Shown: in pieces, positions 1 through 64,000 of the stretch
How positions within the stretch are numbered: the stretch's first letter is position 1
How the letters are laid out: each line of letters starts with the position of its first letter
DNA from: Tetradesmus obliquus
Taxonomy: Eukaryota > Chlorophyta > Chlorophyceae > Sphaeropleales > Scenedesmaceae
Direction of reading: 5' to 3'
Length of the DNA stretch: 64,000 nucleotides
Assembly: GCA_030272155.1 (NCBI GenBank)
Contig: CP126206.1
Location: forward strand, 3,206,001-3,270,000
Position numbers and translations under genes: made by a program
Notes under the pieces: model-generated
Databases searched by the model: none
The model's input: only the letters and a program-made list of their open reading frames with translations
Told to the model about the DNA's origin: nothing

Positions 1-318
1 CAAACAGAGAAGAGCCAGCTTCCAGATGGGCCGCAGTACCCTGCTCAAGGTGAGGTTTTGGGGTTTTGATGTTTAGTCTGGCTTGTTCGAGGACTGGGCC
101 TGTTGGTGATGCAGGCAGAGCTCAGTCACGCAGTGTGGCAAACAGAGAGGAGCCTGCCTTTCAGATGGGCCGCAGCACCCTGCTCAAGGTGAGGTTGTTG
201 GTTTCATGGGTTCTATCAGGGTTTTGGAAGATTTGGGGTCATGCAGGCGGAGGCCATCCACAGTGTGGCCAACAGGGAGGAGCCAGCTTTCCAGATGGGC
301 CGCAGCACGCTGCTCAAG
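1..318 (+). repeat. Three tandem copies of an exon end with its donor (THOC2)
   Basis: The exon segment encoding NREEPAFQMGRSTLLK, each time followed by a GTGAGG or GTGAAC donor, ends at 49, 188 and 318. The spacing is about 130-140 bp and the segments between are intron-like. Only one copy is needed for the protein. Which copy is spliced cannot be told from sequence. Confidence 0.75.
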
Positions 319-502
319 GTGAACACATATCCTGAGTTACAGCAGCCAGGCTATCAGGTTGTCAGTTTGTTTGTGCACACGTGATAAGCAGGGGCTTACT
401 GGCTGTTCATTCAAGCTTCCTTGGCTGCAAAATGTAGCAGCTGCTGGTGCCGCTGGATGTGGTGATGGCTGATTTATAAACCTTCCGCCATTGCTTCTGT
501 TC

Positions 503-553
<51 letters not shown>

Positions 554-3500
554 CTGCAGGTGCTGACAGAAGGTTCCTCAGACCAGCAGCTGCTGGTGCC
601 GCTGGTGGTGGTGCTGGCTCAGCACCTGAAATGACTTGCTACTGCTGCTGCTGTCTGAAAACCACTGCGCAGTTGCTTACAGAGGGGTCCCCAGACCAGC
701 AGCTGCTCGTGCCGCTGGCTGTGTTGGTGGTTTATTTTTTCCAACCTTCCGCCATTGCTTCTGTTGTTGCTGCTGCTGCTGCAGGTGCTGACAGAAGGGT
801 CACCAGACCAGCAGCTGCTGGTGCCGCTGGCGGTGGTCATGGCTCAGCACCTGGACTGGAGCCTGTTCACGCTGCACACGCAGCACCTGAAGGAGCTGGC
901 GGAGCAGCATGATCGAGTGAACGAGATCTGCCAGCAGGTGTGTTACTCGTTATGTTGTTACATTGCATTGTTATATCATGTGTCGTTGGGCAGCACCTGG
1001 ACTGGAGCCTGTTCACGCTGCACACGCAGCACCTGAAGGAGCTGGCAGAGCAGCATGATCGAGTGAACGAGATCTGCCAGCAGGTGTGTTACGTGTTATG
1101 TTGTTACATTATGTTGTTACATGACATATTCGTGGGCAGCATCTGGACTGAAGTCTGTTTACGCTGCACACACATCATGATGCTGAAGCACTGCGTGCTC
1201 AAAGACCAGGAAATGAAACCCAACGATTATCACAGGCTGAAACACGGCTGCTGCTGCTGCTACTGCTGCAGTACATCATGATGCTGGAGCACTGCGTGCT
1301 CAAGGATCAAGAGATGGAGCTCAAAGACTACGCAGCAGCGCTGCCGCCACTGCACGTGCTTATCCGGCAGTATGGCGTTCACCCCGGCATCGCCTGGATG
1401 CTGTGGCGGCCCGTGGTGGCTGCGCTGGAGCCGCAGCTCATGGCACGACTCGAGGTGTGTTATATCATCTGATTATTATGTGTGCTTTGTTGCATTCTGC
1501 TGTGTGTTTCTGTGGTATGTATGGTGCGCACATTTGCATCACGGGACGTCGCACACCAATTGCATGCATCCCGTCAGTAACTCACAAGATGTCTGGAATC
1601 TTGACTGCTACAGGCGCGGGCGCTTGCTGCAGCAGCAGCAGCAGGCGAGGAGGGCGAAGAAGGCGAGGCAGAGGCACTGCCAGATGCGGCAGCAGCAGCA
1701 GCAGCAGCAGCAGATGGCAGCAGCAAGGCGCCTGCTGCTGCTGCTGATGGCGAGGAGGGGGAGCTGCCTGAGGAGGGAGAGGCCATGCAGGGAGCGGAGG
1801 GGCCAGGTGAGCGTTGCGTGCACAAAACATTTTTTATTATTTAGATCAAACTGGTTTAGAGCAAGCAATTTTGTTTTGTTGGCATCGCTGTATGGTTGAA
1901 TGCTCCCACTGCCAGAAGAGGGAGAGGCCGTGCAGGAATGGAGGGGCCATGTGGGTGATTTGCTCTTTGAAAAAAAACATGTCAAAAACAGCATCAGAAA
2001 CCATTTCTGTAGCAAATTATTTGCAATGACAGTTTGTTGGTCTTTTGCATTCACAACTGGTCATGTGTTGTCGTTGTATGGCTTGATTGCTCCCACTGCC
2101 GGAGGAGGGAGAGGCCATGCAGGGCGTGGAGCGGCCGGGTGGGTTGTTATTAAGCAAGCTTGCTTACAACACAGCATGAGCACCTGCATGGTTCTGCTAG
2201 GGACAGCGATGCAGTAGCCGCCAATCTGGCCCTGCCCTTTTCTATTTACATCACAGCCTATTCACAACACAGCCTCAACCGTTGTGCTGCTGCGTGGTGT
2301 GTGATACGCAGGCGCTGCCCGGGCTAGTGCTGCTGCTGCTGCAGCAGCAGCAGCGGCAGCAGCCGAGTCAGCCGCCAAGCTGGCCCTGCCGGACTCCAAA
2401 ACAGCATACACAATGCGGCGTCTATTTACTTAACCTGCTACATGCTGCGTGCTGTCTGGAATGTAGGGGCTGCGCGGGCCGGCGCTGCTGCAGCAGCAGC
2501 AGCAGCTGCGGCAGAGTCAGCCGCCAAGCTGGCTCTGCCTGTCAGCCTCGCTGACGTGGAGGGCAGCGTTGGACAAATCGATGAGGCGCTGTTTAAGACG
2601 CTGCGGGTGAGAGTCCTGGAATTTGGCATGCCCATAATCAACAAAACATTTGATCTGACCACAAAGCTACAATTCAGTCACCAAATCTTCTGCTCCCCTT
2701 GCTAATCCTCTTGCTGATGTGTTGCCTAGATGCGAGCTGTGTGCACTTGCATATCTGTCTGAGTCACAACTTAATGCACTCCTCTGCAGGCTGCCTTGGA
2801 ATAACATTTAGTCGGTTTGTGCCCCTGTGCCGCCTCTGCCGTCATGACAATGTCACATAACAACCAGGAGCCGCTGTACATCGCCTTCTGGAGCCTGCGG
2901 CCGGAGGAGATGCATGTGCCAACAGACATGTGAGCCCCAGCTTTGCTGCAGTCAACAGCAACTGCATGTTTAACTGTATAGACGCCGCGTGTCACAGCAA
3001 CCGACAAAACGTGCAGGCGCACAGAGACGCTATTGCTCCGTGCAGGCCCTTGCATTGCACATCATCCATTACTTTCATCTCTGCCCCTGCCTTTCTGTGC
3101 AAGCCCTGAAGTCTTCCTGCTGTTCATGCTGCTGCTACCGGCTGTTTGTTATTTTGTTAACGAACATGTCATGTAACAGTTATGACACCCGCATTGGCGA
3201 GATGGAGGCGTTCCTGCGCACCTCAGGCAAGGAAGCCAGTCAGCTGCAGAACAGCATCGACAGCGAGAGGAGGGGCCTGGAGCGGCTGCAGACAGCGCCA
3301 GTGCACGGCAGAGGCGGCCCCAGGGTGGGTTTCAGGGTAACGTTTCAGGGCTTTGTGTGTGAGGTCTGGGATCCTGGTGTGTCTTTGAAATCAGACAGCG
3401 AGAAGAGGGGCCTGGAGCGGCTGCAGACAGCGCCAGTGCATGGCAGAGGCGGCCCCAGGGTGGGTTTAAGGGGTGAGGTTTAAGGGCTCTCTGTGTGAGG

Positions 3501-6500
3501 TCTTGGATGCTTGAGTTTCGTCGAAATCAGACAGAGAGAAGCGGTGTTTGGAACGGCTGCAGACCGCCCCTGTGCACGGCAGGGGCGTCCCCAGGGTGGG
3601 TATTTGCTGTGTTTTGCTTTTGGTATAGGGTTTGGGGGTGCCATTGCGTGTTTTGCTTTTGGTATAGGGTTTGGGGGTGCCATTGCGTTCAGACAGCGAG
3701 AAGAGGGGCCTGGAGCGGCTGCAAACAGCCCCCGTGCACGGCAGAGGCGCACATATAGCCAGCGGAGTACCTAAACACTCCCGAAGTCATGTGGGAGTTT
3801 TGATTTTCAGTGGCTGGGAGTAGGCACCTACTCCCGCACCCCAACTCCCATGGAGTTGGGCCTGGAGTACCCCTGACTGGAGCACCCAGGAGTACTCCTA
3901 AAGTACTCCAAATTTGTTTTTAAACTCCAGGAAGTATGTGGGAGTACTCTGGGAGTACTTCGGGAGTGCTTCAGCACCATTCCCGCAGAACCCTCGACCT
4001 GCCTGGAGGACCACTCCGAAGTACTCCAGCTACTCCAGGCTGACCTCCAAACTCACGCGAGAGTGCAGATGCGCCGTTTGCGACAATAACAATAAGTTTC
4101 TATCATTCCGAACCTACATTCTTGTTCTGGCTGAGCTCACGCATTCGCCAAAAGTTCCTTCTGGGTAGCTTGACGTGGCAGTTCCTTCGGTGCACGCGCC
4201 TTTTAACAAACAAGCATCGACAAATATTGCAACGTGAACGATTGCACCGCGTGAGGGTGCAAAAGCCGAATTTTCTTCCCTCGGTCAACTCTATAGGCCC
4301 AGCTCGGTCACTGGTCAAACTCCCCACAAGAACAGCAGCTGCACCTCAGCACAGCAGTGCTCATGATCAGCATACACTGGAGGTAATCGAACGAACAGCT
4401 AAAAAGTGACATCAAACCCATACACAACAACAGGGACACGGTGCTGTTTTGTAGACTCGCAGTGAAGCAAGCAATTAGGTCTTGTCTGTCGGCGCCATGC
4501 TGTACACTGTACACCGCGGCAGTTGTGCAGCCAGCCAGCAGCAGCAGCAGCAGCGTGAGCACACGCCTCCTCCAGAAACATTAGACGCGACGTGCTGGGT
4601 TTGATTTAGGGTTCAGGGTGCAGGGTTTGGTTTAGGTGATGCGTGCAGGTGAGGGTTTAGGGTTTAGGGTATCAGTGCGGCGATGCGAGCGGAGCTAAAC
4701 CATAACCCTAGCCTCCTAAAACCCTAACCCTAACCCTAGGCCACTGCTAGGCCGTGCTTCCCTGTGGTGGTGTGCTGGCTCGGCCGCCCACAGCGGCCCT
4801 AACCCTAGGCCACTGCTAGGGTTTTAGGAGGCTAGGGTTATGGTTTAGCGTAGCCAGTACGCAGTTTAGGGTTCTGTGTGGGGTTTCGGTTTAGGTGATG
4901 CATGCAGGTGAGGGGTTTAGGGTAGTTTGCGGTGAAGGGTGCAGGGTCTGGTTTAGGTGATGCGTGTAGGCCTAAGCACCCAGGTGCTTTAGCTGCCCTC
5001 GCTTTCCGTTCATGCTGCACAACAATTGCACGCTATCAGAGCGTGCAAACAACATAGGGCTTGTTCATCTGAAGGCAAGCAGCAAATGACATTGTACATG
5101 CAGCAGCAGCAGTCGAGATGCAGCTACGCAGCATGCATGCCAGCTGATGACGCATCCTGCAGAAGATGCAGCAGGCAGTTGTGCTGCCCTCTGCTTGAAT
5201 GGGCTTGTGCTGTAGTGCGACAGAAATGTGCCATGCACCACTGCACAGTGCACTCATGTGTGCAACTCATACAGGATACACCGGGCACACGGCCTCAATA
5301 TGAAATAAACAAAGTGCTGTCGTGTATGCTGAAGTACTCGAGTGCTGTTCAGTGCAACCTGGTCAACAGTAGAACTACTTTTGATGTGGTGATTGGCACG
5401 CGCCAAGTGTCCTGCATTGAAAGCTACAACTACATATCTTCCCCTTTGTGATGTTAAGCAACGACGCCGCGCCGCTGGGCGGAAACCATCGCATCGCATA
5501 CTGCACGTGCACGATAAGTGAATGTCTGGCTGAAGTACAGCTGTTCACTCGGAATATATATTGACTTATAGCAATCACGTTGCTTTGAAATAATTTTAAT
5601 AAAATGCGAACGCTGGCTGACATGCTGAACTGCCTGGAGTAGCTGGAGTACTCCGGAGTGCTACTCCAGGGGCCTGCCTGGGTGAGTGCGGGCGGGAGTA
5701 GCGGGAGTACTCCGGAGTGCTACTCCAGGGCCGGTTAGTACTAGGCCAGTAACTGGAGTAGCTAGAGTACTCCGGAGTGCTACTCAGGGGGTTGGCTAGG
5801 GTAGGAGCCATCCCGGAGTAGCGGGAGTACTCCGGAGTGCTGCTCCAGGGGGGTAGGGTGTGTCTCTTGCTGGGAGTACTCCCTGGAGTAAAATGGGAGT
5901 CTTAAGGCACTCCGCTGGCTATATGTCCAGAGGCGGCCCCACGGTGGGTTTTAGGGTTGAGCACCTAGCATATAGGGTTTTAGGCTTTTGAGTTCAGCTG
6001 CAGAACAGCATCGACAGCAAGAAGAGGGGGCTGGAGCGGCTGCAGACAGCGCCAGTGCACGGCAGGGGCGGCCCCAGGGTGGGTTGTTTGTGTTTTGGTC
6101 TGGGGTGTTAGTCGTTGGGTCACTGGGGTATCAGCCTGTGGGTTTGGGTTGAGGTTCAGTCACTAGTCATTGGGATTGCAGTCTTCTTGTTGAGGACCTG
6201 GGGCCAGGCAAGGAGGCCAGCCAGCTGCCGAACTCGATCGACAGCGAGAAGAGGGGGCTGGAGCGGCTGCAGACCGCCCCCGTGCACGGCAGAGGCGGCC
6301 CCAGGGTGGGTATTTGTTGTGTTTTGCTTTTGGTATAGAGTTTGGGGCTGCCATTGCGTTCAGACAGCGAGAAGAGGGGCCAGGAGCGGCTGCAGACCGC
6401 CCCGGTGCATGGCAGAGGCGGCCCCAGGGTGGGTATTTGTTGTGTTTTGCTTTTGGTGTAAGGTTTTTGGGTGCCATTGTGTTCAGACAGCGAGAAGAAG

Positions 6501-9500
6501 GGGCTGGAGCGGCTGCGGACCGCGCCTGTGCACGGCAGGGGCGGCCCCAGGGTGGGTTTTACGGCTGAGGTTTTCTTTGTGTGGGCTTTGTGGCAACTCG
6601 TGTACAAGGACAGATTCACAGCTCAGGGTTTCAGACCTTGCTCAGTACACCGTGTCAGCTGGCCGAACTACTCCTTTACTGCCTCTGAATGACACGCCGC
6701 ATCTGCATTGCTGCCCTGCAGGACTTTGACCTGAACCGCATCATCGACAACATCACCGCCAAGCAGAACCAGCTGGCGGAGCTGGAGCGCAAGGCGGCAC
6801 ACTTCAAGGTGAGGGTTTGACATGGTTTTTAGGGCTTTGTGCTTGGGGTTTAGGGTTGTGGTGTGGAAGGAGAACATCACCGCCAGGCAGAACTAGCTGG
6901 CAGAGCTGGAGCGCAAGGCGGCACACTTCAAGGTGAGGGTTGTAACACATTTGAGGTTGAGGGCTCTGTGCTTGGGGTTTTGGCAGATCAATTCGTGCTT
7001 GAAAGTTGCATGCCATCTTTTTGTGTGTTGTGCGCTGCCCTGCAGGCTGTGCTGGTGCCGTTGAATGCAGAGCGCAACGAGCTGGTGGCTCGGCACCGGC
7101 ACCAGCCAGGATCCACACTGTTGTTGAATGCTCTTAGTCATCTCTTACCAGTATTATGTACTAGATGGTAACTAGTCGTTATGCCCGCTTTGTGCTGCGC
7201 TGCAGACCGTGCTGGGGCCGCTGCGTGCAGAGCGTGATGGGCTGGTGGCTCGGAATTGCATCGGCCAAGATCCACACTGTTGTTAAATGCACTTAGTCAT
7301 CTCTTATCAGTATATTGTATCAGATCACGACTAGATGATTTCCGCTTTGTGCTGCCATGCAGGCCGTGCTGGGCCCGCTGCGTGCGGAGCGTGATGGGCT
7401 GGTGGCGCGGCACAGGCAGGTGCTGAAGCGCATGGAGGCTGAGAAGGACACCTATATGGCAAAGGTGGGGGCGGTTGTTTTGCTTTCATTGGTGTCAACC
7501 TGTATCTGCAGCATGCCGATGTGATGCAGTAGTTGCCAGAGCTGGGTGGTGGCCAGCTACAAGCAGGTGCTCAAGCGCATGGAGGCGGAGAAGGACACCT
7601 ACATGGCCAAGGTGCGGTTCCTATCAGCTGATGTTGTCATTCCAACCACAACTATGTTATGTGGCGCTGCTGTCGCCATAACGAGCTGTTGGCGCGCCAC
7701 CGTCCGCTGCTGAAATGCTTCATTCCCAAACTTCCTGGTGCTTCTATCACGCAACTCACCCCCGTGCTTACACCTGGCATGTAGACCCTGTCACCTGCCC
7801 TGCAGAAACCGGTCGTCAAGCCGCTGGCGATTGCCTTCATCAGGCACTGCCTGGTGCCACGCCTCACGCTTGCATTCCTAAACCCCCTTGTGTGTGCAGA
7901 CCCCGTGTACCAACCTCAAACCTAATGCTACCCTGTGTAGATTTGTCCTGTTGTAATGCCTCTGAACCCTGCTGTTGGCCCTGCAGAAGCCTTTGGTGAA
8001 GCCGCTGGCCATTGCCTTCATCAGGCACTGCCTGGTGCCACAGCTCAAGCTCCCATTCCTTGTGCTAACCATACATTCTTATGCCTGAACCCTGCACTTG
8101 GCCCTGCAGAAGCCTGTGGTGAAGCCGCTGGCCATTGCCTTCATCAGGCACTGCCTGGTGCCTGGACACACTCACTCCTACAAATCCTGCACATGTGTCG
8201 ACATCGTGAAACAAACCCCAATGTTGACGTTCTGCTGAACTCTACATGATCCTTTCTTAAATCCTGCAGAAACCCGTGGTGAAGCCGCTGGCTATCGCCT
8301 TCATCAGGCACTGCCTGGTGCCGCGCCTCACGCGCAGCCTTGCTGACGCCACCTTCTGCCACCACTTCACAATGGCGCTGCACACCATGGACACGCCATA
8401 CTGGCCCGCAGCCTTCTTCTGGGACTACGTGAGTTGCAGTAGTGTTTCTTAGATATGTGGTATGCTGTGATGTGTGAGTTTGTCGCCATGCAACGTGCTT
8501 CAGCGTTTTTGTTGTGGAATTTGGTTTGTGGGCCACCTTCTGCCACCACTTCACGATGGCGCTGCACACCATGAATGCACCCTACTGGCCGGCAGCCTTC
8601 TTCTGGGACTATGTGAGTGACCCATGTTTTGAAACACTGTTTTCAGGCTTTTGATGGTGTGATCGTGTGATGGTACCCACAAAAATGCAGCAGTGTTTTT
8701 TTGCTGCATGTCTGTTTTGTGGGCCACCTTCTGCCACCACTTCACGATGGCGTTGTGCACCATGGACACGCCATACTGGCCCGCAGCCAACTTCTGGGAC
8801 ACGTGAGTTGCATTAGTTTTTGTTAGATATGTTTTATGCCTTCGAGGTGTGAGTTTTGTACAAATTGCATCAGCGTTTATGCATGGTATAGAAGAGCGGG
8901 TTCCTGGTGTAAATGCTGTTTGGTCTGCCATCTTCTGCAAGAGGAGGCCGATCAAGCGAATAACACCAGGAAGGCTGTCTCCTTCAGCACAATATGTATT
9001 TTTTCACCTTCTGCCACCACTTCACAATGCGCTGCACACAATTGCCGCGCCCTACTGGCCCGCAGCCTTTTTGTAAGACTATATGTGTGTTTTTTCTTTG
9101 TCTTGCAGGCGGTGACTGGCCTGACCAACATGATCCCAACAGTGACAGAGAAGGAGGCGCTCTGCGTGGGCGTGTTCCTCACGCTGCTGCTGCAGGACCT
9201 GCAGGTGAGTTTGACCGGGTTGACTAAGGTTTGACCAATGTTTGACCAGCGTTTGACAAATGTTTGACAACATCCAAAGTGTAGGAGTCAGCTGTACCTT
9301 GTGTGCTTGGTTGACCTATGTTTGACCAAGGGAGAACTTCACACTGTGCGTGCCCTATGCATTGACACTCAATGAACGTCAGCCTGCATTCCATGTGGAT
9401 GCTCTTAAACTTCTGCCCTGTTTATGCACTGTCCCTGCAGGTGTGGTACTTTGACGAGGCGCTACAAGTTGGACTGTGATCTAAACCCTAAACCCTAAAC

Positions 9501-11042
9501 CGCTCCTTTAGCACTTCTTCGTTACTCACTTGTCAGTCATTTTCCGCTTATATGTCACTCTTTTGTTGCCGCAGGTGTGGTACTTCGACGAGGCGCGCTA
9601 CAAGCGGGACTGCAATCAGCAGACCATGAAGTTCAGCGTGAGTGGCTGGCTGGTGTGACTGGTTCGGTCAGCGGTGAGGCAGGGTTTATTTGCAGGGTAT
9701 AAGGCAGGACTGCAACCAGCAGACTATGAAGTTCAGCGTGAGTGGCTGGCTGGTGTGACTTGGTTTGGTCAGCGGTCAGGCAGGGTTTATTTGCAGGGTT
9801 TAAGGCAGGACTGCAACCAGCAGACCATGAAGTTCAGCGTGAGTGGCTGGTGTGAATGAGCCCAGTCAGTGGTTGGGCAGGGTTACAGTTGTGGGATGTG
9901 AGTCGAGCCTACAGCCAGCAGACCATGGAGTTCAGTTTAAGCGGCTGGCTGGTGTGACTTGGTTCGGTCAGCCGTTCTTGCCACTTCTGCTTTTCTTTCT
10001 GTCCCTTCTGGCGCTGCTGCTACTGCTGATGCTGCTTTTGACCATGCACTTCAAAGTCGGCTTCTGCTTTTGTCCCGCGCTCTTGCTGTACTGTTGTTGC
10101 TGTGCAGGCCACCAACGCCACGCATGTCCACCTTTGCTCAGTTGCAGAAGCTGCTTAAAAAGTGGCAGATGGAACGGTTCGATCAGCGCACTTTTTCCTC
10201 AAAAGCGTACTTTGTCTGCTGTGTGTTTCAGCTGCCTTTGCCGTGACTTTGCCTTATGCTCTGCTGCTGCTGCCGCTGCTGCTATTTCCACACTGCAGGC
10301 CACCAACGCCACGCCTGCCACCTTTGCGCAGTTCCAGAAGCTGTTCAAGAAGTGGCAGACGGAGCTCTTCAAATCACTCAAGGGCTGCGCAGCAGGCGGC
10401 GAGTACCTGCAGAAGCGCAACGCGCTGCTCATCATGTCCAAGATGATCCAGGCAGCACCCGCAGACAAGCCGCCAGTGAGGGTTTGGACGGATCGTGGCT
10501 AGAATTTTGTCGTTGTGTGGGGTTCTTGATGAGGCGGTTGGCGAGGTCCTGCAGATGCGCAACGCACCGCTCATTATGTCCGAGATGATCCAGCTAGGAT
10601 GTATGTCTAGGCTGTCGCAGCCGGCTACTAAGTTTCTATGACGGTGAATGAGCAATGGTGCGCTGCTTGCTGCCAGGACAACCATACGCGCGCGTGGTCT
10701 GCCCATATGCTGCTGGCAGGTGTGGCGCCGTAACATGCTATCGTTGCCTTGTGCTGGCGCTGCTGCTGCTGCTGCTGCTGCAGCAGCAGACGTTCCCCAT
10801 ATGCAGCACGTATTGCGTTGAGAAGACAGAGGTGATGGAGGAGTCCCTCGTGCGTGATCTTTCCTTACTGCTGTTGCTGCTAATGCTGCTGCTGCTGCTG
10901 CTAATGCTGCTGCTGCTGCTGCTGCTGCAGATGTTCCCTGTGTACACCACGCACTGCGAGCAGATGAAGGAGGTGTGAGACGATTCCCCTCACACATGAA
11001 CATAGCACTCACTTCCATTGCTGCCGTGGCTGCTGCTTCTGT

Positions 11043-11094
<52 letters not shown>

Positions 11095-13932
11095 ACAGAT
11101 GTTCCCCGTGTACACCACGCACTGCGAGCAGATGAAGGATGTGATGGAGGAGATCCAGCAGAAGGACGCACGCGAGGACGTGAAGAAGATGGCCCAGGTG
11201 GGTTTTGTTACATTTGTGTTACAGTTGTTGCATGACATGTTACTTTGTCAGATGAAGGAGGTGATGGAGGAGACCCAGAAGAAGGACGCACGCGAGGACG
11301 TGAAGAACATGGTTCTGGTGGGTATTGTTACGTGTGTGTTGCATTTGTTAAATGACGTGTCAGTTTGTTTTGGATGCGAGGCAGCAGCACAGCCCCTGGC
11401 AGTTGCCGTTGGTGTCTTGTGTTGCTCTGCTCCAGCTGTAGCTGTTGCCCTGGTTGGAAGCACATGGATTTCAGCAACGATGTCACCAATGCATGTCAAG
11501 AGTCCCCTTACATAAGCGTCTTCTTATGCTGTTGCTGCTGCTGCTGCTGCTGCTGCCCTACAGGCGCTGGCAATCCAGCTCAGCAACAAGCTGGGCAAGT
11601 GCGTGCCCATGCCTCAGGATGCTGGCAAGGCCAAGCTGGGCTCACGCGGTGAGCAGCTTCTTTTGAAGTTGTCCAAACTATCGTCAAAACTATCGTCATA
11701 GCACACATGGTGTAGGTAACTTTGGTGCATGCTAGCATAATGACCAGCTGACAGGATGCTGGCAATCAGTTGGTTGTTGCGTACATACATGTAGCAGAAT
11801 GAATGTTGCGTCCTTTATTGCTGATTGAACGCTGCGTAATTCAAGCTGTTTCACTGTCAAGTTGAAGCTTGCTTATGTTGTTGCTGACTTTGGTTAATCT
11901 TCTTGTGCTGTTACCGCTCGCAACAGGCGCGCCTGTGCGCGGCCCACCACTCAAGCGCAAGCCGCCAGCGTCACCCGGCAAGCAGCCCGGCTCGCGCCCC
12001 TCCACGCCCCCGCCATCAGCAGCAGCAGCAACAGCAACAGCGAAGGCAGCAGTAGTGAAGGCGGAGGCTGACACAGCAGAGCCAACAGCAGAAGCTGCCG
12101 CGGATGCAGCTGCAGACAAGCCAGCTGCAGCAAAGACAGAAGAGGGGGGCAAGGGAGGCAGCAAGCCATACACGAGCGGTGCTGCCGGCGGCCCGCGTGC
12201 AGTGCGCAAGGGCCAGCCAGCGCCGAAGCAGCAGTTGCAGCAGCAGCAACAGGGCAGCAAGCCGCCTAGGCCAGGCAGCGCAGATGGCGAGCCTGCGCGC
12301 AAGAAGCAGAGAGTGACGCCGCCTAGTAGCAAGGCAGACGGCAACGCCACGGCAGCAACAGCAGCAGAGCAGGAGCCGGGGGAGGTGATGGAGTCGGCTA
12401 ATGCTGAAGGGGGTGGTGTTGCTGCAGGTGATGCAGGTGGTGATGGCAGCGCTGCAGGAGCCAGCAGAGATGGAGGAGCAGCAGTGGCTGGCGACGGCGC
12501 GGGTGCCAAGCCCAAGCGGGAGGCGGTACCCCGGCCGCCGAAGAAGGCCGGCGTAGCAGCAGTAGTTGCGGCAGCGGCGGCAGCGGCAGCACATGCGAGG
12601 GGCCGCAAAGATGGCAGCAGCGAGCTGAAGCAAGAGGAGCAGCCTGACGAGCAGCAGCAACAGCCGCAGCGGCAGCGGCAGGAGGAGCGCAACCGCCACC
12701 CCACGCCTGACCTCGCGCGGGGCCACCACTCACACCATTCGCAGCAGCAGGACGAGGCTGCCACTGCCTCTCCTGCTCGCAGCCACAAGGGTGAGAGGGG
12801 CGCCTCCCCTGGCAGTAGGGAGCAGCAGCGGCAGCCGCACGAGCGGGGCAGTGACAGAGACCGGGGCAGGGAGAATGACAGCGGCAGGGATGGCCGCGAC
12901 GGCGGCAGCAGGCACCACTCAAGGGACAGCCGTGAACAGCAAGACGAGGCGCCTGCTGCCGGTGGTGGTGGTGGTGGTGGCACGGGCAGCAGCAAGCGCC
13001 GGCGCGGCGGCAACGGCAGCGGTGGCACCGCAGAAAAAGCAGCGGAGGCGCCGCCTCAGCAGCAGCAGCAGCCGCGTGAAGACCGGGATAGGCCTAGCAG
13101 CAAGCCGCGGGACAAGGACAAAGACCGCGAGGGGGACGGAACGCCCGGCGGCGAGGGTGGCCGTGAGCAGCAGCACGGCCGGGGTGAGAAGGATCGGGAC
13201 AGGAAGCGGGAGCGCCGCGAGAAGAAGGGCGGCGGGGACCGGCAGCCACAACAACAACAACAACAACAGCAACAGCAGCAGCAGCAAGAAGACCGGCGGG
13301 ACAAGGGCTCTCGGGAGGGCGGCGGCAGCCGGTGAGTAGCGCGGGCCTTGTTCAGTGTTTGCAATGCTAGTTGCTCAGGCAGCATCGTATGTGCGGCTTC
13401 TTGCAGCCAAGGCCAAGACGGTTTCTGTAAGATGCTCTTACTTCAAATCAAATATGTCTCGTATGCCGCAAACAAATGCTTGATTGAAATTGCCCCTTGT
13501 TCAAGTACAGATCATCAATGAGTTGGTGGAAGACACTAGTATGCATCTAGTTCTGCTGACCGGCACCATGTGTGCACCATGCACTCGTGTTGCTGGCGTT
13601 TCCTTGCATGCAGGGACGAGCCTTCGGAGCCGTCAAAGAAGCGCCGCCTTGATGACGACCGCTCGGCAGATGGCGGCGGTCGCGAGCAACAGCAGCAGCC
13701 CAGCCGCCGCCAGCAGCAGGACAAGCAGCAGCATGAGCAGCGCCGTAGCGCCAAGCACACCCCCATCATGGCGCCAGCTGATGAGGCTAAGGCTGGTGGC
13801 AAGAGGGATGGTGGGGGTGGTGGATCAGGGGGAGGTGGAGCAGCGGGAGGAGGAGGGGGAGGAGGGGGAGGAGGTCATGAGAGGGGTGGTGAGGAGCGCC
13901 AACATGGTGGCGGAAGCAGCCGCAGGCGCTAG
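1..13932 (+). CDS. THO2: THO complex subunit 2 (THOC2/THO2), 5' end outside window
   Basis: THOC2 is the scaffold of the nuclear THO complex, which couples transcription to mRNP assembly and export. Exons that join in frame include 785-937, 1272-1454, about 1612-1807, 2461-2605, 2850-2929 (AFWSLRPEEMHVP, matching the FWSL block of the family), 3180-3324, 6722-6808, 7363-7464, 8270-8428 (FIRHCLVPR, ATFCHHF), 9109-9204, 9575-9637 (VWYFDEARYKRDC), 10299-10475 (FKKWQTELFKSL), 11099-11197, 11564-11648, 11927-13331 and 13614-13932. Order and spacing follow the family: FWSL block, coiled coil, C-rich FxxLCxxPR-like block, then KW and GEY blocks. The last two exons form the usual long charged, low-complexity tail (K/R/D/E/Q, poly-Q, poly-G). 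Exon 1612-1807 is an Ala/Glu linker. The gene is bloated by duplicated splice-junction segments and a transposon. The first exons lie upstream of the window. The assignment is strong; exact exon choice among duplicates is uncertain. Confidence 0.86.
440..1180 (+). repeat. Duplicated acceptor-side and donor-side segments around exon 785-937 (THOC2)
   Basis: The complete exon is 785-937 (VLTEGSPDQQLLVPL to VNEICQQ). Partial upstream copies of its 5' half lie at about 440-470, 560-620 and 672-722. Copies of its 3' half with the GTGTGTTAC donor lie at about 993-1083 and, more degraded, at 1136-1180. A truncated copy of the next exon (1272-1454) precedes it at about 1172-1230. Confidence 0.75.
1900..2605 (+). 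repeat. Decayed copies of the acidic exon end and the Ala-rich exon start (THOC2)
   Basis: The 3' end of exon 1612-1807 (LPEEGEAMQG...) recurs at about 1903-1947 and 2093-2138. The start of exon 2461-2605 (ESAAKLALP) recurs before it at about 2215-2240 and 2310-2390. Donor-side copies therefore lie downstream of their exon and acceptor-side copies lie upstream of theirs, all inside one intron. Confidence 0.65.
3890..4045. repeat. Left subterminal cluster of GGAGTACTCC-like palindromes
   Basis: Repeated GGAGTACTCC, AGTACTCC and GGGAGTACT motifs on both strands lie just inside the left end of the transposon. They mirror the cluster at the right end and are candidate transposase-binding sites. 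Confidence 0.6.
4610..4980. repeat. Telomere-like TTTAGGG/CCCTAA sequence in the transposon core
   Basis: Runs of GGTTTAGGG and AACCCTAACCCTA occur on both strands. A 32-bp inverted repeat has arms at 4695-4726 and 4817-4848. A direct repeat around CCCTAGGCCACTGCTAGG lies at about 4730-4752 and 4802-4820. The repeats are degenerate, so this is not a functional chromosome end. Confidence 0.7.
5636..5880. repeat. Right subterminal tandem repeat, four units of about 60 bp
   Basis: Four consecutive units each contain GGAGTACTCCGGAGTGCTAC and a variable spacer, starting near 5636, 5696, 5755 and 5815. They lie immediately inside the right TIR. Confidence 0.75.
6722..6931 (+). repeat. Exon 6722-6808 and a dead downstream copy (THOC2)
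   Basis: The exon end NITAKQNQLAELERKAAHFK with GTGAGG donor (ending 6808) is repeated at about 6869-6931. The copy has an in-frame TAG (AAC TAG CTG), so it cannot be coding. It keeps the donor and nearby intron sequence. Confidence 0.8.
7045..7611 (+). repeat. Copies of the AVLGPLRAERDGLVARHR exon start and the KRMEAEKDTYMAK exon end
   Basis: The main exon is taken as 7363-7464. Acceptor-side copies precede it at about 7045-7108 and 7206-7262, with intron flanks also similar (phrase around CTCTTA-CAGTAT). A donor-side copy follows at about 7558-7611. Confidence 0.75.
7804..9078 (+). repeat. Copies flanking exon 8270-8428 (THOC2)
   Basis: The exon start KPVVKPLAIAFIRHCLVP occurs at about 7806, 7987, 8110 and 8270 (the complete exon). 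The exon end HHFTMALHTMDTPYWPAAFFWDY with GTGAGT occurs at 8428, 8611 and 8802, and in degraded form at about 9008-9078. Acceptor-side copies all lie upstream and donor-side copies all lie downstream. Confidence 0.82.
9205..9330 (+). repeat. TTTGACC minisatellite in a THOC2 intron
   Basis: About seven near-repeats of TTTGACCAA/TTTGACAAA lie just after the donor at 9205. This is an intronic simple repeat with no other sign of function. Confidence 0.7.
9440..9940 (+). repeat. Copies around exon 9575-9637 (VWYFDEARYKRDCNQQTMKFS)
   Basis: A truncated, frame-shifted upstream copy of the exon start lies at about 9440-9478, followed by three CCCTAAA units near 9482-9503. Donor-side copies (NQQTMKFS then GTGAGTGGCTGG) end at about 9738 and 9839, with a degraded one near 9935. 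Confidence 0.78.
10108..10612 (+). repeat. Copies around exon 10299-10475 (THOC2)
   Basis: An acceptor-side copy (ATNATHVHLCSVAEA-like, after TGTGCAG) lies at 10110-10185. A donor-side, mutated copy of the YLQKRNALLIMSKMIQ segment lies at about 10545-10600. Confidence 0.72.
10745..11320 (+). repeat. Copies around exon 11099-11197 with CTG arrays at each acceptor
   Basis: The exon start MFPVYTTHCEQMKE appears at about 10791, 10931 and 11099, each preceded by an uninterrupted or nearly uninterrupted CTG array ending in CAG. A donor-side copy of the exon end (VMEETQKKDAREDVKNMVL, then GTGGGT) lies at about 11251-11318. Confidence 0.8.
11045..11098 (+). repeat. (CTG)16 array abutting a 3' splice site
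   Basis: Sixteen perfect CTG units (11045-11092) are followed by CTACAG and the exon at 11099. The array takes the place of the polypyrimidine tract. Confidence 0.85.
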
Positions 13933-14043: not shown

Positions 14044-14529
14044 CAAGGCAACATCACATCACTATAAATCGTCAGGATGTGAGCTAGGTCCCATAATTTT
14101 ATTGTGATGGTACCAGGTCTGTGGGCTTGCATACCAACAATGACGTGCATGTGTTGCTTTGTGCACAATTTGAAACGATGAGACCGACGTCACCACCCTG
14201 TCAGAAATGCCGTGTTATTAATTGTACCATGCCAACATCAAAAGGCAGCACATCTAGATGACGAGATCTGATCACTGATCTATGCTAGCAAAAGCAACAC
14301 AAGCACGACAGCGTCATGCGCATGCCCATTGCGCTGCCGCGCTTGCCTGAAAGGCTACTCAGTGGAATGTGAAGCGCAGCTTTTACATGTTGCCTCGTGC
14401 CCTTTTCAAACATAGCGTCCAACAAAACACACAACGACAACATTAATCGCACCACAGCTGCCCTATCACACATTATGCCAATGAGTATAGCCACCACACT
14501 ATGGCACAACACGCATACCTGCACGCCCG

Positions 14530-14845
14530 CAGAACATTGTCACACTTGCGCCGCCCCAGCCCAACTCAGCTGTGGTGACCTTTGCACGTCTGTTTGATGG
14601 AACCTGTAAGATGGAATGGCACAAGCACGGTTGTAGGATAGCCAGGTGTGTGCGTGTTGATGTTGCCACAACGCAGGCGTGCAAGTGTGCGCAACAGCAG
14701 ACCTGTAAGCTGGCAGAACGTTGTCACACTTGCGCCCCTTCTGCCCAGCTCAGTTGTGGTGACCTTTGCACGTCTGTTTGATGGGACCTGTAAGATGAAA
14801 TGGTACAAGCACGGCTGTAGGATAGCCAGGTGTGTGCGTGCTGTC
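14530..14845. repeat. Two tandem copies of a dispersed repeat of about 130 bp
   Basis: Copies at about 14530-14656 and 14716-14842 share phrases such as GTCACACTTGCGCC, GTGGTGACCTTTGCACGTCT and ACCTGTAAGATG. A third copy lies at about 17708-17835, next to the 3' end of the LINE. This suggests a small dispersed element or a LINE-associated 3' tail. Confidence 0.75.
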
Positions 14846-17519
14846 ATTGCCGCACAGCAGGTCTACAAATCACTATGGCCAAGCCTGATCCACAAACCAT
14901 CCTCAAGTCGTCCACAGCGCCTGACTGGTGCATCCACAGCATGCTGCTGTGGATGACTGTTCAGTGGCTGCTCACAGAAGCTATAAATGATGCCGTGGAT
15001 GTGTTTTTAAGTGCATTCTATGGTTATTCAAGGACAGCACACCTGTGCAGCCGCAACAGTTGTACTGCAGGAGCCCCTCCTGGGGGGCCCCAGATGTCAG
15101 GTGCAGGTGCAGGCCTGGCAGGACACATGCACGGTAGAGGCAGACTATGCTACTTTCTTATTACTTATAATCGTTCAGCCGTGGTTGTTGTACTACTGCA
15201 GTTCCCTTGCAACCCTGCAGGACTGGGCTGAAGCACTTGGTGTGCCGATGGCACATCTTGCTGCCAGCACAAACTGGGCGCCCATTTGTAATAAATTTTC
15301 GAATCAAACGGTTTGTTAGAAGGAATGCGCCTGACAGCATTGGTCGCGCTCCTGACATCTGTTCAAACATCGTGGTTTGGAACTGACAGCCCACCCTAAT
15401 GCGGAGCACCCCATGGCTGATGCAAGCGCAACAAATGAAATTGAAGCTTTGACTTCAATGGACCTGCTTTCAACTGCGCCTGAGTAATGCCTGCGTACAC
15501 AGCATCGTGAGGGGTTGCAGCGTACCTGCCGGGCTGCTTTTACAGCGATTGATGACGACATCTTCACGCAAAATATCACGTCGTAGCGATTACAATGAGT
15601 ACAACAGGTTTATGCAAGTGACCAGCCCAGGATCAGCCAGATCAACAGTGCTGCTACCAACAGCAACCATGGCTGTTGTGGGTGATCCTGGGCCCATCAC
15701 TGTCGTGCGCCTGCTTCATTCGTTACTATATAAACATAATCTATGTTTCTAGCAGCGTTATTGCAGCGTTGACCACACTAGTGCCAGCTGATGCAGCAGG
15801 AGTTGCACAGCAGCAGGAGCAGCAGCAGGCATCCACAACATACATGCACGCCAAAGCACACATGTGTGGGCGGCAAATCCTGGACGCTGGATCTGCTATT
15901 GCACCAAACGTAAAGCAGCAGACAGCAGGTGAGCAAGCTGTGCAAGCCACTAGGCAGGTGGTGACATCAGCAGCTGACCCGAGCACAGCAGCGGACTGCA
16001 GTCCCTCTGCACGCATGTGCATCTTGTCCTGCAGGCAGTCAGCGGTGGATTTGTGAGGGGCAATCAGCCGTAGGGTCAACGCTTAGCCCGCAACAGCTTT
16101 GTCACGGTAGCGCAAGTGAAGCAGTGCTGTGTGGCATACTGAACATGCATGAATTCACATGTATGTTGTTGCGCATGCATGGCTTACGGATCGCATTTGT
16201 GCACATTTTAACACTGCGCAAAGGCTGCCACGGCTACATTCCTTGAATTAGATGCCAAGTTGTGAAGCTGCGCTGATGATGTCAAGCAACAACAGCACAC
16301 TCAGCGGCTGCAACAGCTTGATGCCAGGTGAGAGGATCTGCTGCCAGGTGTACAGCAGAAGCACAGGTTCAGCGACAGCTACATGACCCCAGAGGCAGTG
16401 CACAGCAACGACAACAGCTGGCAGTGGCTGCAGTAGCATGTGATGGCACTAGCTGCTGCAGCGGCTGCCCTGCATGCGCACGACATCACGGTAACACTGG
16501 CAGCAGAAGCAGCAGCAGCACCTGTGATGCATGTTGGCTTGGGTCGCACCACGGGGTGCCTGCAAGCATCAATGCAGTAGCAGCTGCCGTTTGCACAGCA
16601 CTCACCACACGTGATGGTTTGCTGCAGGTTCGTCCAGTGCATCGGGCTGTTTGCAGGCAAGCAGCCTGCAGCGCGACGGCTTTACTCGCGCACAACAATC
16701 TCACTGTCAACAACAGTCTGGCACTTGTTGACAGGTACGTGCAAGGTTGAGCATGCAGGGCGCCATCCAGGGTTCTGCAGCGCAACACAGATCGCATGCC
16801 TGCCTAGTGTCAGATCACCTCCGCAGCAGTAGCAGCGTCAGACTTGCGCCACATGTTGTGTGGGGTCTTGATATGCCAGTGCTTCTATGCTGAGAAGCAG
16901 CAGCAGCGAAGTTGTACAATTCCTGCATGGGGGTTTGACAGCAGCAGCGCTGCTGTAGCAGTTGCACGTACAACACAGACCCCTAAAACACTTTGCTGCC
17001 TTTGTTGTTGCTGCTGCTGCTACTGCGACTGCTGCTGACTTGCCCAGTGCAGTGCAAGCTGATGTGCAGGTTACCGAGTTGCATGCTATGTGTTGCTGCA
17101 GCAAGCAGGCATCGTGGAGCTGTCATTCCATCAAATGCACGGTTTAGCAGCAGCTTAGGGCCTGACACAGCAAGACGGGCTGCTGGAGTGGCAAGCAGCA
17201 TGCTACTGACTGAGCAGCATCAGACAGAACACAATGGTTCAGGTTGCATGTGGCAGGTCACAGCATGGTGTTGCGTTGCAGGGACATAGCACATCTTGCG
17301 GCATTCTTGTCTGTTTTTGTGTACATGTGGCCTGGTACTACAGGTGTAGCAGGAGCAGCAGTGATTTGGCCTTGCAAGCTTCGTACCTGCTGCTGCTTCT
17401 GTTGCTGCACGCTGTGCTCGCGTACCCGGCGCCAGCGCGACGCGAAATCATCGGTTATTGTTATATATCATTGTTGAACATGTTTAATCAATGATACGAG
17501 GCTGGTTTACGCTATCCAC

Positions 17520-17660: not shown

Positions 17661-17707
17661 GGGCCTTGACCATAGTGAATGTGCGTAGCAGCAGACTTGA
17701 ACGCTCG

Positions 17708-40140: not shown

Positions 40141-40175
<35 letters not shown>

Positions 40176-40277: not shown

Positions 40278-40330
<53 letters not shown>

Positions 40331-40434
40331 GTTGATAAGGCTCAGGGGTTAAGTTGTTGAAGGTTTCCTGGCTCTGTTGCCAAGAGCAGTGACAGCTGCG
40401 GCAGTTGAGCGAGACGCCCTGCCTTGGTGCCTGC

Positions 40435-40497
<63 letters not shown>

Positions 40498-47198: not shown

Positions 47199-47232
<34 letters not shown>

Positions 47233-47346
47233 ACGTTCGGCGGTAGACTCATGCAAACTGCAAGCAGCAGACAACGGCTGGCATGACTGAAGCAGAGAGG
47301 TTTGGGGAGGAGCCGCCTGCTGCTGCGGAGAGGCGGGAGAGGCCCT

Positions 47347-47386
<40 letters not shown>

Positions 47387-47904
47387 CAGAAGCAACAGGG
47401 ATGTTCTGCTTGTGATAACAGAGTGACATCAACAAAGGCTGGCATGACTGACGCAGAAAGGTTGGGGGAAGAGCGCCCGGCGGCAGCTGAAAGGCGAGAA
47501 AGGCCCTGCAAAAGCAGCAGCAGCAGCAGTAGCAGCGAAGTGTTGCTGGTGACACCAGGTACTATCAACAAAGGCTGGCATGACAGAGGCAGAGAGGTTT
47601 GGCCAGACAGGCGAGAAAGCCCCTGCAGCAGCAGTAACAGCAGCAGCAGACATTTGGTGGTTCAAGCAACCACCCAAGAACCCCCCTCACCCGCTGCTGC
47701 TGTGCCTTGAGCTCATCCATCACGCTCTGCCCAGCAGCACTCCCCGGAAAGTTCACACCAGGAGAACCGGGAACTCGCGGTGAACCCCGTGGTGAACTCA
47801 TACTTCTCAGCGGCGATCCCGGGCCTTGTGGTGAATTCATACCGCGAGGTGGCGTCTGGTACCTCTGCTGGTGTGGCGAGTGGGGTTGTGCTGCCTTGCT
47901 GTTG

Positions 47905-48887: not shown

Positions 48888-49616
48888 ACAGTCAAGGCAT
48901 GTTGTGGGTGCCACAGCCGCGCTGGTGGCAGTTGCTGTGCGGCTACGCTGCAACAGGCACGTCACCAGCGCCAGGTCGGAACCGCTACCTCATGCAACAA
49001 ATAGGTGACTCAAAGTATAACAATGCATGTAACTGATAAAAAACCGTGTAACATAACAACCCTCACCTTGGCTGCAAGAGCTTCGTCAATGCGGTCCGGG
49101 GCATCTGCCACCAGCTGGATGTCATCCGCCAGGCAAATTGCCAATACAGACGGTGCAACTCATGTGACTGGTTTGTAACAACATGTGTAACAACACTATT
49201 GATTACATCAGTAACAGTTTCTAGAATCATCAGTAACAGCCCGCACCTTGGCTGCAAGGGCCTCATCAATGCGGCCCGGGGCATCTGCCACCAGCTGGAT
49301 GTCATCCAGCAGGCCCAGCGAGCACTCCAGTGCCAGGGTTTTGCGCCACTGCAGCAATGTTATAATGTCACAATTTGTGTTACATGGTTAACCTGACATT
49401 TGAACCTCTCAGGTGCAGGATGAGCCTGCTGCTGCTGCAGGCAACATGTACGAGAGCGTCCCTGCTGCTACAGCCGCCTTCACAGCGCAAGGTGCCGCCT
49501 AGTGTTTGTGCTGGTTGTGTTTGCTGCTGCTGCTGCTGCTGCTGCTGCGTTGCCACTTGACGAACGTCGTGCTGCTGGGTTCTGCACACCGCAAGGTGCT
49601 GCCTGGTGCTAGATGC

Positions 49617-52379: not shown

Positions 52380-53195
52380 CCACAGCTTGCAGCACAACAA
52401 ACCCCCTCCATGCAATGCAGACAAAGCAATGCGCTCCATCACCCACCCACAGCAGATTTGATGCAGTAAGCACGCAAATGCATGCCGTATGATGCAACAA
52501 AGGCGCTGCAGCAGCAGCAACCAGGCAGCACCGCCATAGTGCTGTCTGGAAGTGCTGCAGGTGCAGGCAATGCAGTGGCACAACAAAAGTGTTCACAACA
52601 TGACCAAAGTGTGACACCATGCAACTGCCCGCGCAGCTGCTGTTTTGAAAAGAGCGAAGCATGATCACTGCACAAATGCCAGCAGTGTACATGTGCAATC
52701 CCTGTCGCAGGCAATCACAACAAGCTATCAGCACTCTTACTGCAAGCTCCCTGGCAATGCAGACAAAGCAATGCCCTGCAGCACAAACTCTGTTTTCTCT
52801 TCGACAAAACAGCATTCAGCGATTCGCCACCATGGGACATGTCTGGCCATACAGCCTGTCTGGCGCAAGCCTTCATGCTGCTACGGTCGCTGCAGGTGAA
52901 TTGCAGCATGCACGTGAATGCATGCAGTACGATGCACCTGAAAGGCTGCAGGGGCAGCAACTGGCCACCACTGCATAGTGCTGCAGGTGCTGCGGGTGCA
53001 GGCGATGCAGTGGCACATCTGTTGCTGCTGCTGCTGCTGCTGCTGCAGGTGCTGCTGCTGCTGCTGCTGCTGCAGGTGCTGCGGGTGCAGGCGATGCAGT
53101 GGCACATCTGCTGCTGCTGCTGCTGCAGGTGCTGCTGCTGCTGCTGCTGCTGCAGCTGCTGCAGGTGCTGCGGGTGCAGGCGATGCAGTGGCACA

Positions 53196-53260
<65 letters not shown>

Positions 53261-53360
53261 GGGTGCAGGCGATGCAGTGGCACAACACAGGGGTCAGCGG
53301 GTGTTCAAAGTGTGACACCATGCAGTGTACACGCACAACTTTGCCTAACCAGCACCCAGT
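52380..53360. repeat. Duplicated segment, one copy expanded by CTG-containing minisatellite units
   Basis: Segment 52380-52640 resembles 52880-53340: both share GTGCAGGCAATGCAGTGGCAC-like and AAAGTGTGACACCATGCA phrases. In the first copy the core unit occurs once (about 52551-52583). In the second it occurs four times (about 52978, 53074, 53160, 53256), separated by CTG arrays, the longest at about 53196-53262. Confidence 0.75.
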
Positions 53361-56923: not shown

Positions 56924-57155
56924 AATTCCTGCAAGTGGGCATGAGGTGCACCAATTCCTGCAAGTGGGCATGAGGTGCACCAATTCCTGCAAGTGGGCAT
57001 GAGGTGCACCAATTCCTGCAAGTGGGCATGAGGTGCACCAATTTCTGCAAGTGGGCATGAGGTGCACCAATTCCTGCAAGTGGGCATGAGGTGCACCAAT
57101 TCCTGCAAGTGGGCATGAGGTGCACCAATTCCTGCAAGTGGGCATGAGGTGCACC
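56924..57155. repeat. 29-bp minisatellite, exactly eight copies
   Basis: Eight head-to-tail 29-bp units (core TGCAAGTGGGCATGAGGTGC) differ by a single base (ATTTCTGC in the fifth unit). The near-identity indicates recent expansion. On the minus strand all three frames stay open through it because 29 is not a multiple of three and no frame of the unit has a stop. Confidence 0.93.
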
Positions 57156-57458
57156 AACAACGCAAATCAGCCCAACACAATCCTCATCTGAGTAATCACT
57201 GGTGCAATGTGCCAAGGATTCCAGCTTGATGCCAGCACCCTAACAGCAATGTACCGCTGGCAACTGCTTGGAACTGTTGGTTCTGTTCCTATCATACTAT
57301 GATCCTTAGTTGAGTGGTAGTACCACTCAATCAAGGAGTGGTAAACTGCGCAAAGGCATGCAAGAATTGCACAAACCATCTGGTGGCAATGCGCCAATGC
57401 TGATCCCAGGGCCGAAAGGCTGTGGCAGCTGCACCAGCATGCAGCCGGCTGAGCCATA

Positions 57459-62606: not shown

Positions 62607-62642
<36 letters not shown>

Positions 62643-63479
62643 CGGCAACACCGCTAGCTGATACTGAGGCGATATGGGCCCCTGATGCTCTTGCTGCTGA
62701 TGACGAAGGAGGGGCAGCAGCTGCAGCAGCAGAGTCGGATGAAGTGCTTGTTGCTGCTACGTCACTGGACAGGTGGGGTTTTAACACGATGATGATGATA
62801 GACAGGTGGGGTTTTGTGTTTGATGTTTGCTGCGGTGCAATGGCTGTTGCAGTGATGCTCATGCTGTTGATGATGGAGTGGCAGCAGCCGCAGCAGCAGA
62901 GCTGGACGAAGTGCTTGCTGCTGCCACATCCCTCGACAGGTGGGGTTTTGTAATTGAGGTTGGGCGCTGTGCAGTTGTTTCTGCACTTGGTGTTGAAGGA
63001 GTGGCAGCAGTTGCTGTGATTGCTGCAGCAGCGGAGCCGGATGAAGTGCTTGCTGCTGCCACATCCCTCGACAGGTGGGGTTTTGTAATTGAGGTTTGGC
63101 GCTGTGCAGTTGTTTCTGCACTTGGTGTTGAAGGAGTGGCAGCAGTTGCTGCGATTGCTGCAGCAGCGGAGCCGGATGAAGTGCTTGCTGCTGCTACGTC
63201 GCTGGACAGGTGGGGTGCTGCGTTTGATGTTTACTGCGGTGCAGTGGCTGCTGCACTGACGTTCATGCTGATGGTGATGAAGGCGTGGCAGCAGTTGCTG
63301 TTTGAAGCAGTTGCTGCTGCTACGTCACTGGACAGGTAGGCGCGTGGTCATGGTGGTTACAAAGGTAGCAGCAGCTGCTTGTCTTGCTGCTGCTGACTTG
63401 CAAGGTGGCCGTCCAACCCGTTCCTTCACACCAAGCAAGCTTGCTGCCTCAAAACTGCTGCCGCCGCCGCCGCTGCTGC

Positions 63480-63513
<34 letters not shown>

Positions 63514-64000
63514 TACTGCTGCTTTGCAGGAAGGTCTCCCCAGTCCCTGCCTACAGCTTTGACGCGGTCATTGCAGCCCAGCCCGCAAACAAGGCAGGCG
63601 CACAGATGAAGAAAGTGTTGCAGGTGAGCGACCTGCTGACCCTTGACTCGCTGACACTGGTGACACTGGTGTCACACAGTCGCTAGAAGTGCTAGTGACG
63701 CAGTGACACAGTGACACCGACACCGACATATGCAAACTCCCTGTGAACAGTGACACAATGACACAGTGACACCGTCATGTCAGATCAGCCTGCCAAGGCA
63801 GGCTCGCATATGAAAACGTGCTGCAGGTGTGTAATGGTACAGGTTGAATAAAAATACATGCATTATAGACCCTTCTGTGTGTGACGAGCCAGGAATGGTG
63901 CATAGCTGATGCAGTCTGCTGCTGTGCCTGAGATGCTGTACTGAAGGCCCCGCATCCTCTGCCACACCCGCTGAGCACTGAACTTCAACCACGCCCAAAA
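62483..64000 (+). CDS. Unrecognised gene with a signal-peptide-like start, 3' end outside window
   Basis: Exon 1 (62483-62772) starts MQPPRLVPAALLLLLLLLCS, a typical secretory signal or anchor, then an Ser/Ala/Glu-rich region and DEVLVAATSLD. The donor is GTGGGG (62773). The next in-frame exon is 63530-63623 (KVSPVPAYSFDAVIAAQPAN, then KKVLQ) after a CTG array and TTTGCAG, with donor GTGAGC. The phase (two bases plus one) is consistent. The gene runs off the window. I do not recognise the family. The same splice-junction duplication is present as in the other genes, which supports that these are real exons. Confidence 0.55.
62890..63340 (+). repeat. Four copies of the DEVLVAATSLDR exon end
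   Basis: The source junction is at 62772. Donor-side copies ending before GTGGGG or GTAGGC lie at about 62938, 63074, 63208 and 63337, with a period of about 135 bp. The copies at 63074 and 63208 share nearly identical intron sequence. Confidence 0.83.
63690..63780 (+). repeat. GTGACAC(A/C)-type microsatellite
   Basis: Irregular repeats of CAGTGACAC and ACACCGACA lie in the intron after exon 63530-63623. A weaker run is seen at 63635-63680. Confidence 0.7.
63795..63829 (+). repeat. Copy of the second exon's end
   Basis: A segment resembling NKAGAQMKKVLQ followed by GTGTGT repeats the end of exon 63530-63623 about 205 bp downstream. Confidence 0.65.

Follow-up and report, generated by a model that had tools for sequence, protein, structure and literature searches.

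The stretch of DNA analysed here, referred to as the window, comprises 64,000 nt of the green alga Tetradesmus obliquus (contig CP126206.1, positions 3,206,001-3,270,000) and is part of an assembly of 17 contigs totalling 104,662,953 bases. For this species, passages of a published description give a GC content of 57% and a mean intron length of 462 bp (PMC5966456). The window includes predicted genes for THOC2, a purple acid phosphatase and a Sec8-containing gene chain, and a further gene at its right end. The joined THOC2 exons matched THO complex subunit 2 in the PDB (7znk/7apk; query residues 68-509, E 3.2e-23), and Pfam supported the purple acid phosphatase, Sec8_N and an RNase H domain, probably retroelement-derived, located between the THOC2 and phosphatase genes (18479-19029, minus strand). 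The joined exons of the Sec8 chain, in which Pfam Sec8_N did match, had no PDB match at E 0.01, the right-end gene had no Pfam match at E 0.01, and neither a tRNA scan nor an Rfam scan of the window gave a hit. The subject of this work is the local copies of exon ends and splice sites that accompany many junctions of these genes, and which an earlier, sequence-only reading had attributed to a process that takes the splice junction as its unit.

In THOC2 (plus strand), donor-side arrays are located at 1-322 (exon end, donor and intron start; period about 138 bp), 845-1177 (146 bp), 8348-9089 (about 184 bp, behind the predicted exon 8270-8428) and 9604-9975 (about 100 bp), together with a two-copy array at 6746-6983 (124 bp) and a clean head-to-tail pair of 120-bp units across a donor at 11129-11368. 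Acceptor-side arrays occupy 528-853 (about 110 bp), 7031-7412 (about 160 bp) and 10752-11143 (141 bp), and acceptor-side copies at 7785-8333 lie ahead of the predicted exon 8270-8428. Copies of another exon end and donor (peptide TAPVHGRGGPR) form an array whose left half (3259-3749, period about 123-136 bp) and right half (5928-6560, including the predicted exon 6004-6078) are separated by a transposon-like element (3750-5927), which we take to be hAT-like. This element is about 2.2 kb long and presents 32-bp terminal inverted repeats (3751-3782 and 5895-5926; 91%), subterminal repeats and, as read by eye, an 8-bp target duplication CAGAGGCG (3742-3749, 5928-5935). Inside it there is also a telomere-like stretch of AACCCTA, with a perfect inverted repeat of 33 bp (4694-4849).

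In the phosphatase gene (minus strand), an exon end with its donor (26178-26279) has a 102-bp copy 263 bp off (25915-26016; 25915-26279 in all), the homology ending just beyond the donor; an acceptor-side array with a period of about 140 bp is located at 27219-27907, and the exon 28974-29182 is accompanied by a donor-side copy (28829-28891) and two acceptor-side copies (29364-29505, 29599-29691), the whole spanning 28829-29692. On the same strand, the Sec8-containing gene chain has an acceptor-side array at 33973-34305 (130 bp) and, at 49054-49314, an exon end and donor with a copy 180 bp downstream; a donor-side array of about six copies is found at 36251-37076 (about 122 bp), and acceptor-side arrays at 39730-40484 (about 137-166 bp) and 46998-47649 (about 135 bp). 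An array of the right-end gene (62683-63340, plus strand, period about 135-170 bp) spans several predicted exons. No predicted junction is present in a two-copy 185-bp array after THOC2 (14504-14861, plus strand), in an array of 89-bp period with copies about 95% alike (52979-53284) and in a minisatellite of about eight near-identical 29-bp copies (56924-57157). A third copy of the 14504-14861 repeat was observed about 3 kb away, at 17680-17841.

For comparison, 20 loci at fixed, not random, positions were sampled (at 1.0 Mb on the 17 contigs and at 2.5 Mb on three of them), and the gene finder was self-trained on the window and all these loci; the splice motifs learned were of the type CAG|GTGAG for donors and GCTGCAG|G for acceptors. 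Gene models are predictions in which in-frame copies were often called as exons, and this is a weakness of the counts built on them. All 20 loci were included in the random 60-mer control and in the screen for satellite-like loci. Locus L020, which contains a large repeat, was left out of the measures of duplicated fraction, alignment ends, frameshifts, divergence of parts, synonymous differences and period coverage, and both L020 and L019 (satellite-like, 59% duplicated) were left out of the counts of periods, junction crossing, arrays, families, odds ratios, intron content and triplet tracts, and of the placement calculation and the divergence comparisons with the simulation and at matched GC, which are based on 18 loci. 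The satellite-like arrays of L019 (1-3959 and 4086-6039) have periods of 274 and 351 bp, and in L020 a similar long open frame (336 aa) recurs every 4.28 kb or so (573-1581, 4855-5863, 9137-9998), probably as part of a larger tandem repeat.

The self-comparison of the window that the sequence-only reading had proposed was carried out with BLAST and revealed 231 direct versus 28 inverted repeat pairs, 179 of the direct ones being spaced 100-1000 bp. Direct pairs of at least 50 bp and less than 1 kb apart amounted to 149 (pairs inside one array counted separately), pairs more than 3 kb apart, considered with introner elements (related introns in many unrelated genes) in mind, looked by position mostly like triplet tracts and copies within THOC2, and Tandem Repeats Finder returned 142 rows, a large number of them with a unit between 100 and 370 bp. 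A significant local copy was detected for 94 of the 147 testable exon edges (up to 60 bp), with donor (48/74) and acceptor (46/73) sides duplicated about equally. Among 60-mers from intron interiors away from exons, 78 of 140 also had local copies (copies of exon edges included); the corresponding figures were 4 of 65 for intergenic-like 60-mers in the window and 50 of 290 for 60-mers taken at random in the 20 loci.

A stricter measure, which considered well-predicted junctions and intron-side copies crossing the junction with at least 75% identity, identified such copies at 43 of the 122 junctions of the window (donors 20/61, acceptors 23/61) and at 42 of the 319 junctions of the sample loci (donors 24/158, acceptors 18/161), with at least one in 12 of the 18 loci; the pattern is not restricted to the window. 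At least 35 bp of locally duplicated DNA was present in 45 of the 58 window introns between well-predicted exons and in 33 of 140 in the loci, and the locally duplicated share of intron length was 50% and 17%, respectively. Local duplication is thus genome-wide in T. obliquus, weaker in the sample loci and dense in the window. The junction copies described from the sequence alone are real, and the lengthening of introns by exon ends and splice sites that are copied and then decay is supported, elsewhere in the genome as well; that nearly every intron carries them holds in part for any local duplication and for fewer introns when junction copies are considered, and copies occur in intron interiors too, 18-23 of the 94 arrays in gene spans having no predicted junction. 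Elsewhere in the genome, AAA profile positions 1-34 and 1-35 were matched at C7:5449444 and C7:5449606, and for Peptidase S41 positions 40-118 were matched at C16:3539956 and, with a stop, positions 82-118 at C16:3539688, which in both cases suggests a repeated exon part.

Primary periods, obtained from self-matches at every offset, rose from about 90 bp, peaked at 110-140 bp and tailed to about 280 bp, with 10 period families between 40 and 90 bp. Periods were alike in junction families, intron-only families and nine families outside predicted genes, and the exonic part of junction copies, with a median of 65 bp, amounted to about half a unit; the unit therefore looks like a length of DNA rather than a junction, and the earlier proposal of the junction as unit, set against units mostly of 90-280 bp and intron-only families of similar period, was not borne out. 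Most junction copies were partial, with only 20 of 85 covering at least 95% of the exon. Among adjacent pairs, the alignment covered at least 0.9 of the period in 46 of 156 and 0.5-0.9 in 33 of 156, and same-strand, head-to-tail adjacency was clean only in part, as in the duplication at 11129-11368 and in that of sample locus L028 (758-942). Two young arrays were noticed in locus L017: a very young donor minisatellite at 5798-6157, by eye with about nine copies of a 37-42-bp unit holding CTTCAG|GTGAGT, and an acceptor-type array at 3505-3837 with 129-bp units, two of them near-identical and the first one older, with a far more diverged intron part (by eye).

Locus L028 served as a control with a known protein, since it encodes the photosystem II D1 protease: four joined exons were identical in 237 of 239 residues to PDB 1fc7 (1fc6 scored equal), a protein that presumably comes from Scenedesmus (Tetradesmus) obliquus itself. 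In this gene, the acceptor and exon start at 758-851 lie directly head-to-tail with 852-942 and agree with it in 76 of 90 aligned bases. The known protein fits the downstream copy and not the upstream one, which is an acceptor copy unused in that protein.

Decay of the copies with stops and frame errors, as stated from the sequence alone, was confirmed: of 97 copies that were not called as exons (window and loci), 14 had an in-frame stop, and among pairs of an exon and such a copy a frameshift was present in 9 of 59 in the window and in 12 of 37 in the loci. Most copies differed by several percent to 30%. In families without exon parts, copy divergence depended strongly on GC content, being.20 below 40% GC and.03-.09 above 60%. 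The transposon-like element at 3750-5927 interrupts one THOC2 array copy not called as exon, and this copy therefore seems dispensable.

The position of the copies relative to exons was analysed in the window and the loci. The duplicated fraction fell from.63 (window) and.22 (loci) at exon edges to.11 and.05 at 100-200 bp inside exons, and exon-only families were rare, 3 of 161 versus 12.6 expected under uniform placement, with periods of 156, 240 and 240, all divisible by 3. Random placement of units on exon-intron chains was calculated to give 21% exon-only, 26-30% intron-only and 39-41% single-junction duplications. The idea that this placement calculation (.57-.61, or.67-.71 with a detectability factor) fully explains the junction share was dropped because a forward simulation gave lower values. 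This simulation combined random duplication and a coding filter with substitutions, small indels and deletions, and its array and family pipelines were near to the real ones but not identical (no triplet masking, true exons known); the simulated junction share of arrays was.66-.72 in four settings, and the observed one was 71/94 or 76/94 (.76-.81), depending on the exon threshold. It is for arrays only that random duplication under the coding filter approaches the observation.

We consider it probable that the copies result from frequent, near-random local tandem duplication within genes, followed by a coding filter and mostly neutral decay. Segments with a preferred length of about 110-140 bp, mostly 90-280 bp, would be duplicated tandemly at local scale, at sites placed more or less randomly within genes. 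The protein would be altered by a duplication that lies within an exon or takes in an entire exon or intron, and most such duplications would be lost. A duplication across a single splice site would be silent: splicing would continue at the outermost copy of that site and yield the old exon, the extra copy becoming intron, and hence the copies would lie in the intron; duplications inside introns would likewise be silent. Retained copies would decay mostly neutrally, and introns would fill with decaying exon ends and splice sites. For the molecular step, duplication during repair or replication, such as staggered-break fill-in or template switching, is favoured and may be involved. On this reading, a junction-specific mechanism would not be needed.

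Several observations weigh against this explanation. The alignment covered less than half the period in 77 of the 156 adjacent pairs. In compact gene chains, the family junction share was 75/90, 71/89 or 63/79, depending on the exon threshold, and exceeded the simulated values of.52-.73 (twelve settings) and.46-.50 (two others, in which exon and intron lengths were drawn from all 20 sample loci). Odds ratios for junctions versus uniform placement were 1.6-1.9 in the window and 2.4-2.75 in the loci, with 0.6 in the simulation, 'intron' in this test including gene-poor DNA. The excess at family level could stem from too many exons being called in duplicated DNA, and a real excess is also possible. 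In addition, 14 of 63 donor alignments of the window stopped 4-8 bp beyond the donor. DNA outside gene spans was duplicated to a fraction of.08 in the window and of.17 in the loci, with L019 counted, so that a restriction of duplication to genes is not claimed.

To the same side belong the sequence differences between exons and copies. Codon differences between exons and non-exon copies comprised 365 synonymous and 271 non-synonymous ones, a synonymous fraction of.574 (bootstrap.51-.635), versus a calculated neutral fraction of.43-.47; by sample, the fraction was.623 in the window and.494 (interval.40-.57) in the loci, and between dead copies, in favour of the explanation, it was.413 (interval.33-.48), inside the calculated neutral range of.27-.43. 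Exon-derived parts also diverged less than intron parts, in exon-copy as well as in dead-dead pairs. Between exons and dead copies, the divergence of the exon and intron parts was.126 and.202 in the window and.118 and.208 in the loci, and the simulated difference was milder (.114/.159 and.106/.148). The exon part was the less diverged one in 24 of 26 dead-dead pairs of the window and in 10 of 11 of the loci, versus 18 of 33 in the simulation. When dead copies were compared at matched GC above 50%, exon- and intron-derived divergence was alike (.161/.175,.153/.140,.133/.128), again in favour of the explanation, and selection on dead exon copies was then dropped as an explanation; below 50% GC the exon-derived sample was 214 columns, so that GC explains the dead-dead difference only in part. 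Taken together, the copies appear to decay mostly neutrally, with the synonymous excess in the window as an exception.

Among the other explanations, ongoing gene conversion between exons and their intronic copies, which would keep exon-derived parts alike, is rather unlikely. The array of L017 at 3505-3837, with an older and a younger step and exon parts that by eye are more alike than the intron parts, and the widely varying homology lengths on the intron side would agree with it; by reasoning, conversion alone would not raise the synonymous fraction, and the GC-matched divergences are alike. It is also unlikely that duplication steered to junctions, or the keeping of junction copies as spare splice sites, constitutes a genome-wide engine of intron growth. 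Copying directed to junctions by a process tied to splice sites, for instance through breakage or template switching where junctions are transcribed, or through copies made from pre-mRNA, would account for the junction excess in period families and odds ratios, for the donor alignments of the window ending at +4 to +8 and for the abrupt homology ends in single cases. We regard it as improbable, since the array-level junction share is close to that of the random simulation, intron-only and outside families have similar periods, and the youngest arrays (at least 93% identity) were no richer in junctions than older ones (13-16/21); the specific donor end was discarded, because it was not repeated in the loci (2/61).

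We likewise give little credence to functional copies, that is, alternative or spare exon ends under selection. The synonymous excess between exons and copies, the reduced divergence of exon-derived sequence among dead-dead pairs and the frequency with which the gene finder called in-frame copies as exons speak for them; against them stand the loss of the divergence advantage at matched GC above 50%, the stops and frameshifts, the element within one THOC2 copy, the D1 protease copy missing from the known protein and a synonymous fraction in the loci that is compatible with neutrality. Slippage between triplet tracts, also put forward from the sequence alone, or recombination between them, is very unlikely: CAG/CTG tracts abound throughout the window, and the acceptor motif that the gene finder learned looks like one, but array ends lay within 15 bp of a tract in 46 of 204 cases, no more than random gene positions (1782/7600). 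An assembly artefact, for which no supporting point was found, is practically negligible given that most copies are well diverged, that junction-crossing copies occur in most sample loci and that the D1 protease copy is diverged while the exon matches an experimental protein.

With near-random local duplication as the favoured origin, a single genome offers many junction-crossing duplications of different ages, and with strains and long-read cDNA the splice choice among similar sites, the death rate of copies and the lengthening of introns become measurable. The preferred unit of about 120 bp calls for a mechanism. The copies are likely to mislead gene prediction and RNA alignment, as they did the gene models used here; false spliced alignments between repeats are described by the EASTR paper (PMC10632439).

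Classical tandem exon duplication is the duplication of exon sequence within a gene, and the T. obliquus copies share with it that exon sequence is copied within the gene; its hallmark, a whole exon with both splice sites, is not what the mostly partial copies show. A literature search over titles and abstract openings, with most subscription papers outside its scope, found the pattern described nowhere, and the passages on introns and tandem repeats of the Haematococcus genome paper (PMC7617258) do not describe it. The sequence-only statement that no described mechanism has this pattern was nevertheless too strong, in view of passages on green algae and on a potato gene. In Chlamydomonas and Volvox, tandem repeats crowd intron ends (PMC3887541), and the likeness lies in green-algal introns being richest in repeats, denser near intron-exon junctions; those passages name short motifs and do not describe copying of exon ends with splice sites. 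Repair of staggered breaks with fill-in by CST/Pol alpha-primase can make small tandem duplications, according to passages of PMC8355091. Such events resemble those of T. obliquus in being local, head-to-tail and without a mobile element, and differ in that they are short insertions of less than 100 bp, versus a mode of 110-140 bp here; a related repair process may operate in the alga. For the potato gene, tandem duplication across a junction is described in passages of PMC4974935, where the AGGT model of Rogers is cited. As in T. obliquus, the duplication extends over an intron-exon boundary and copies the acceptor and the exon start; in potato one event made a new intron, whereas in T. obliquus many events appear to lengthen introns.

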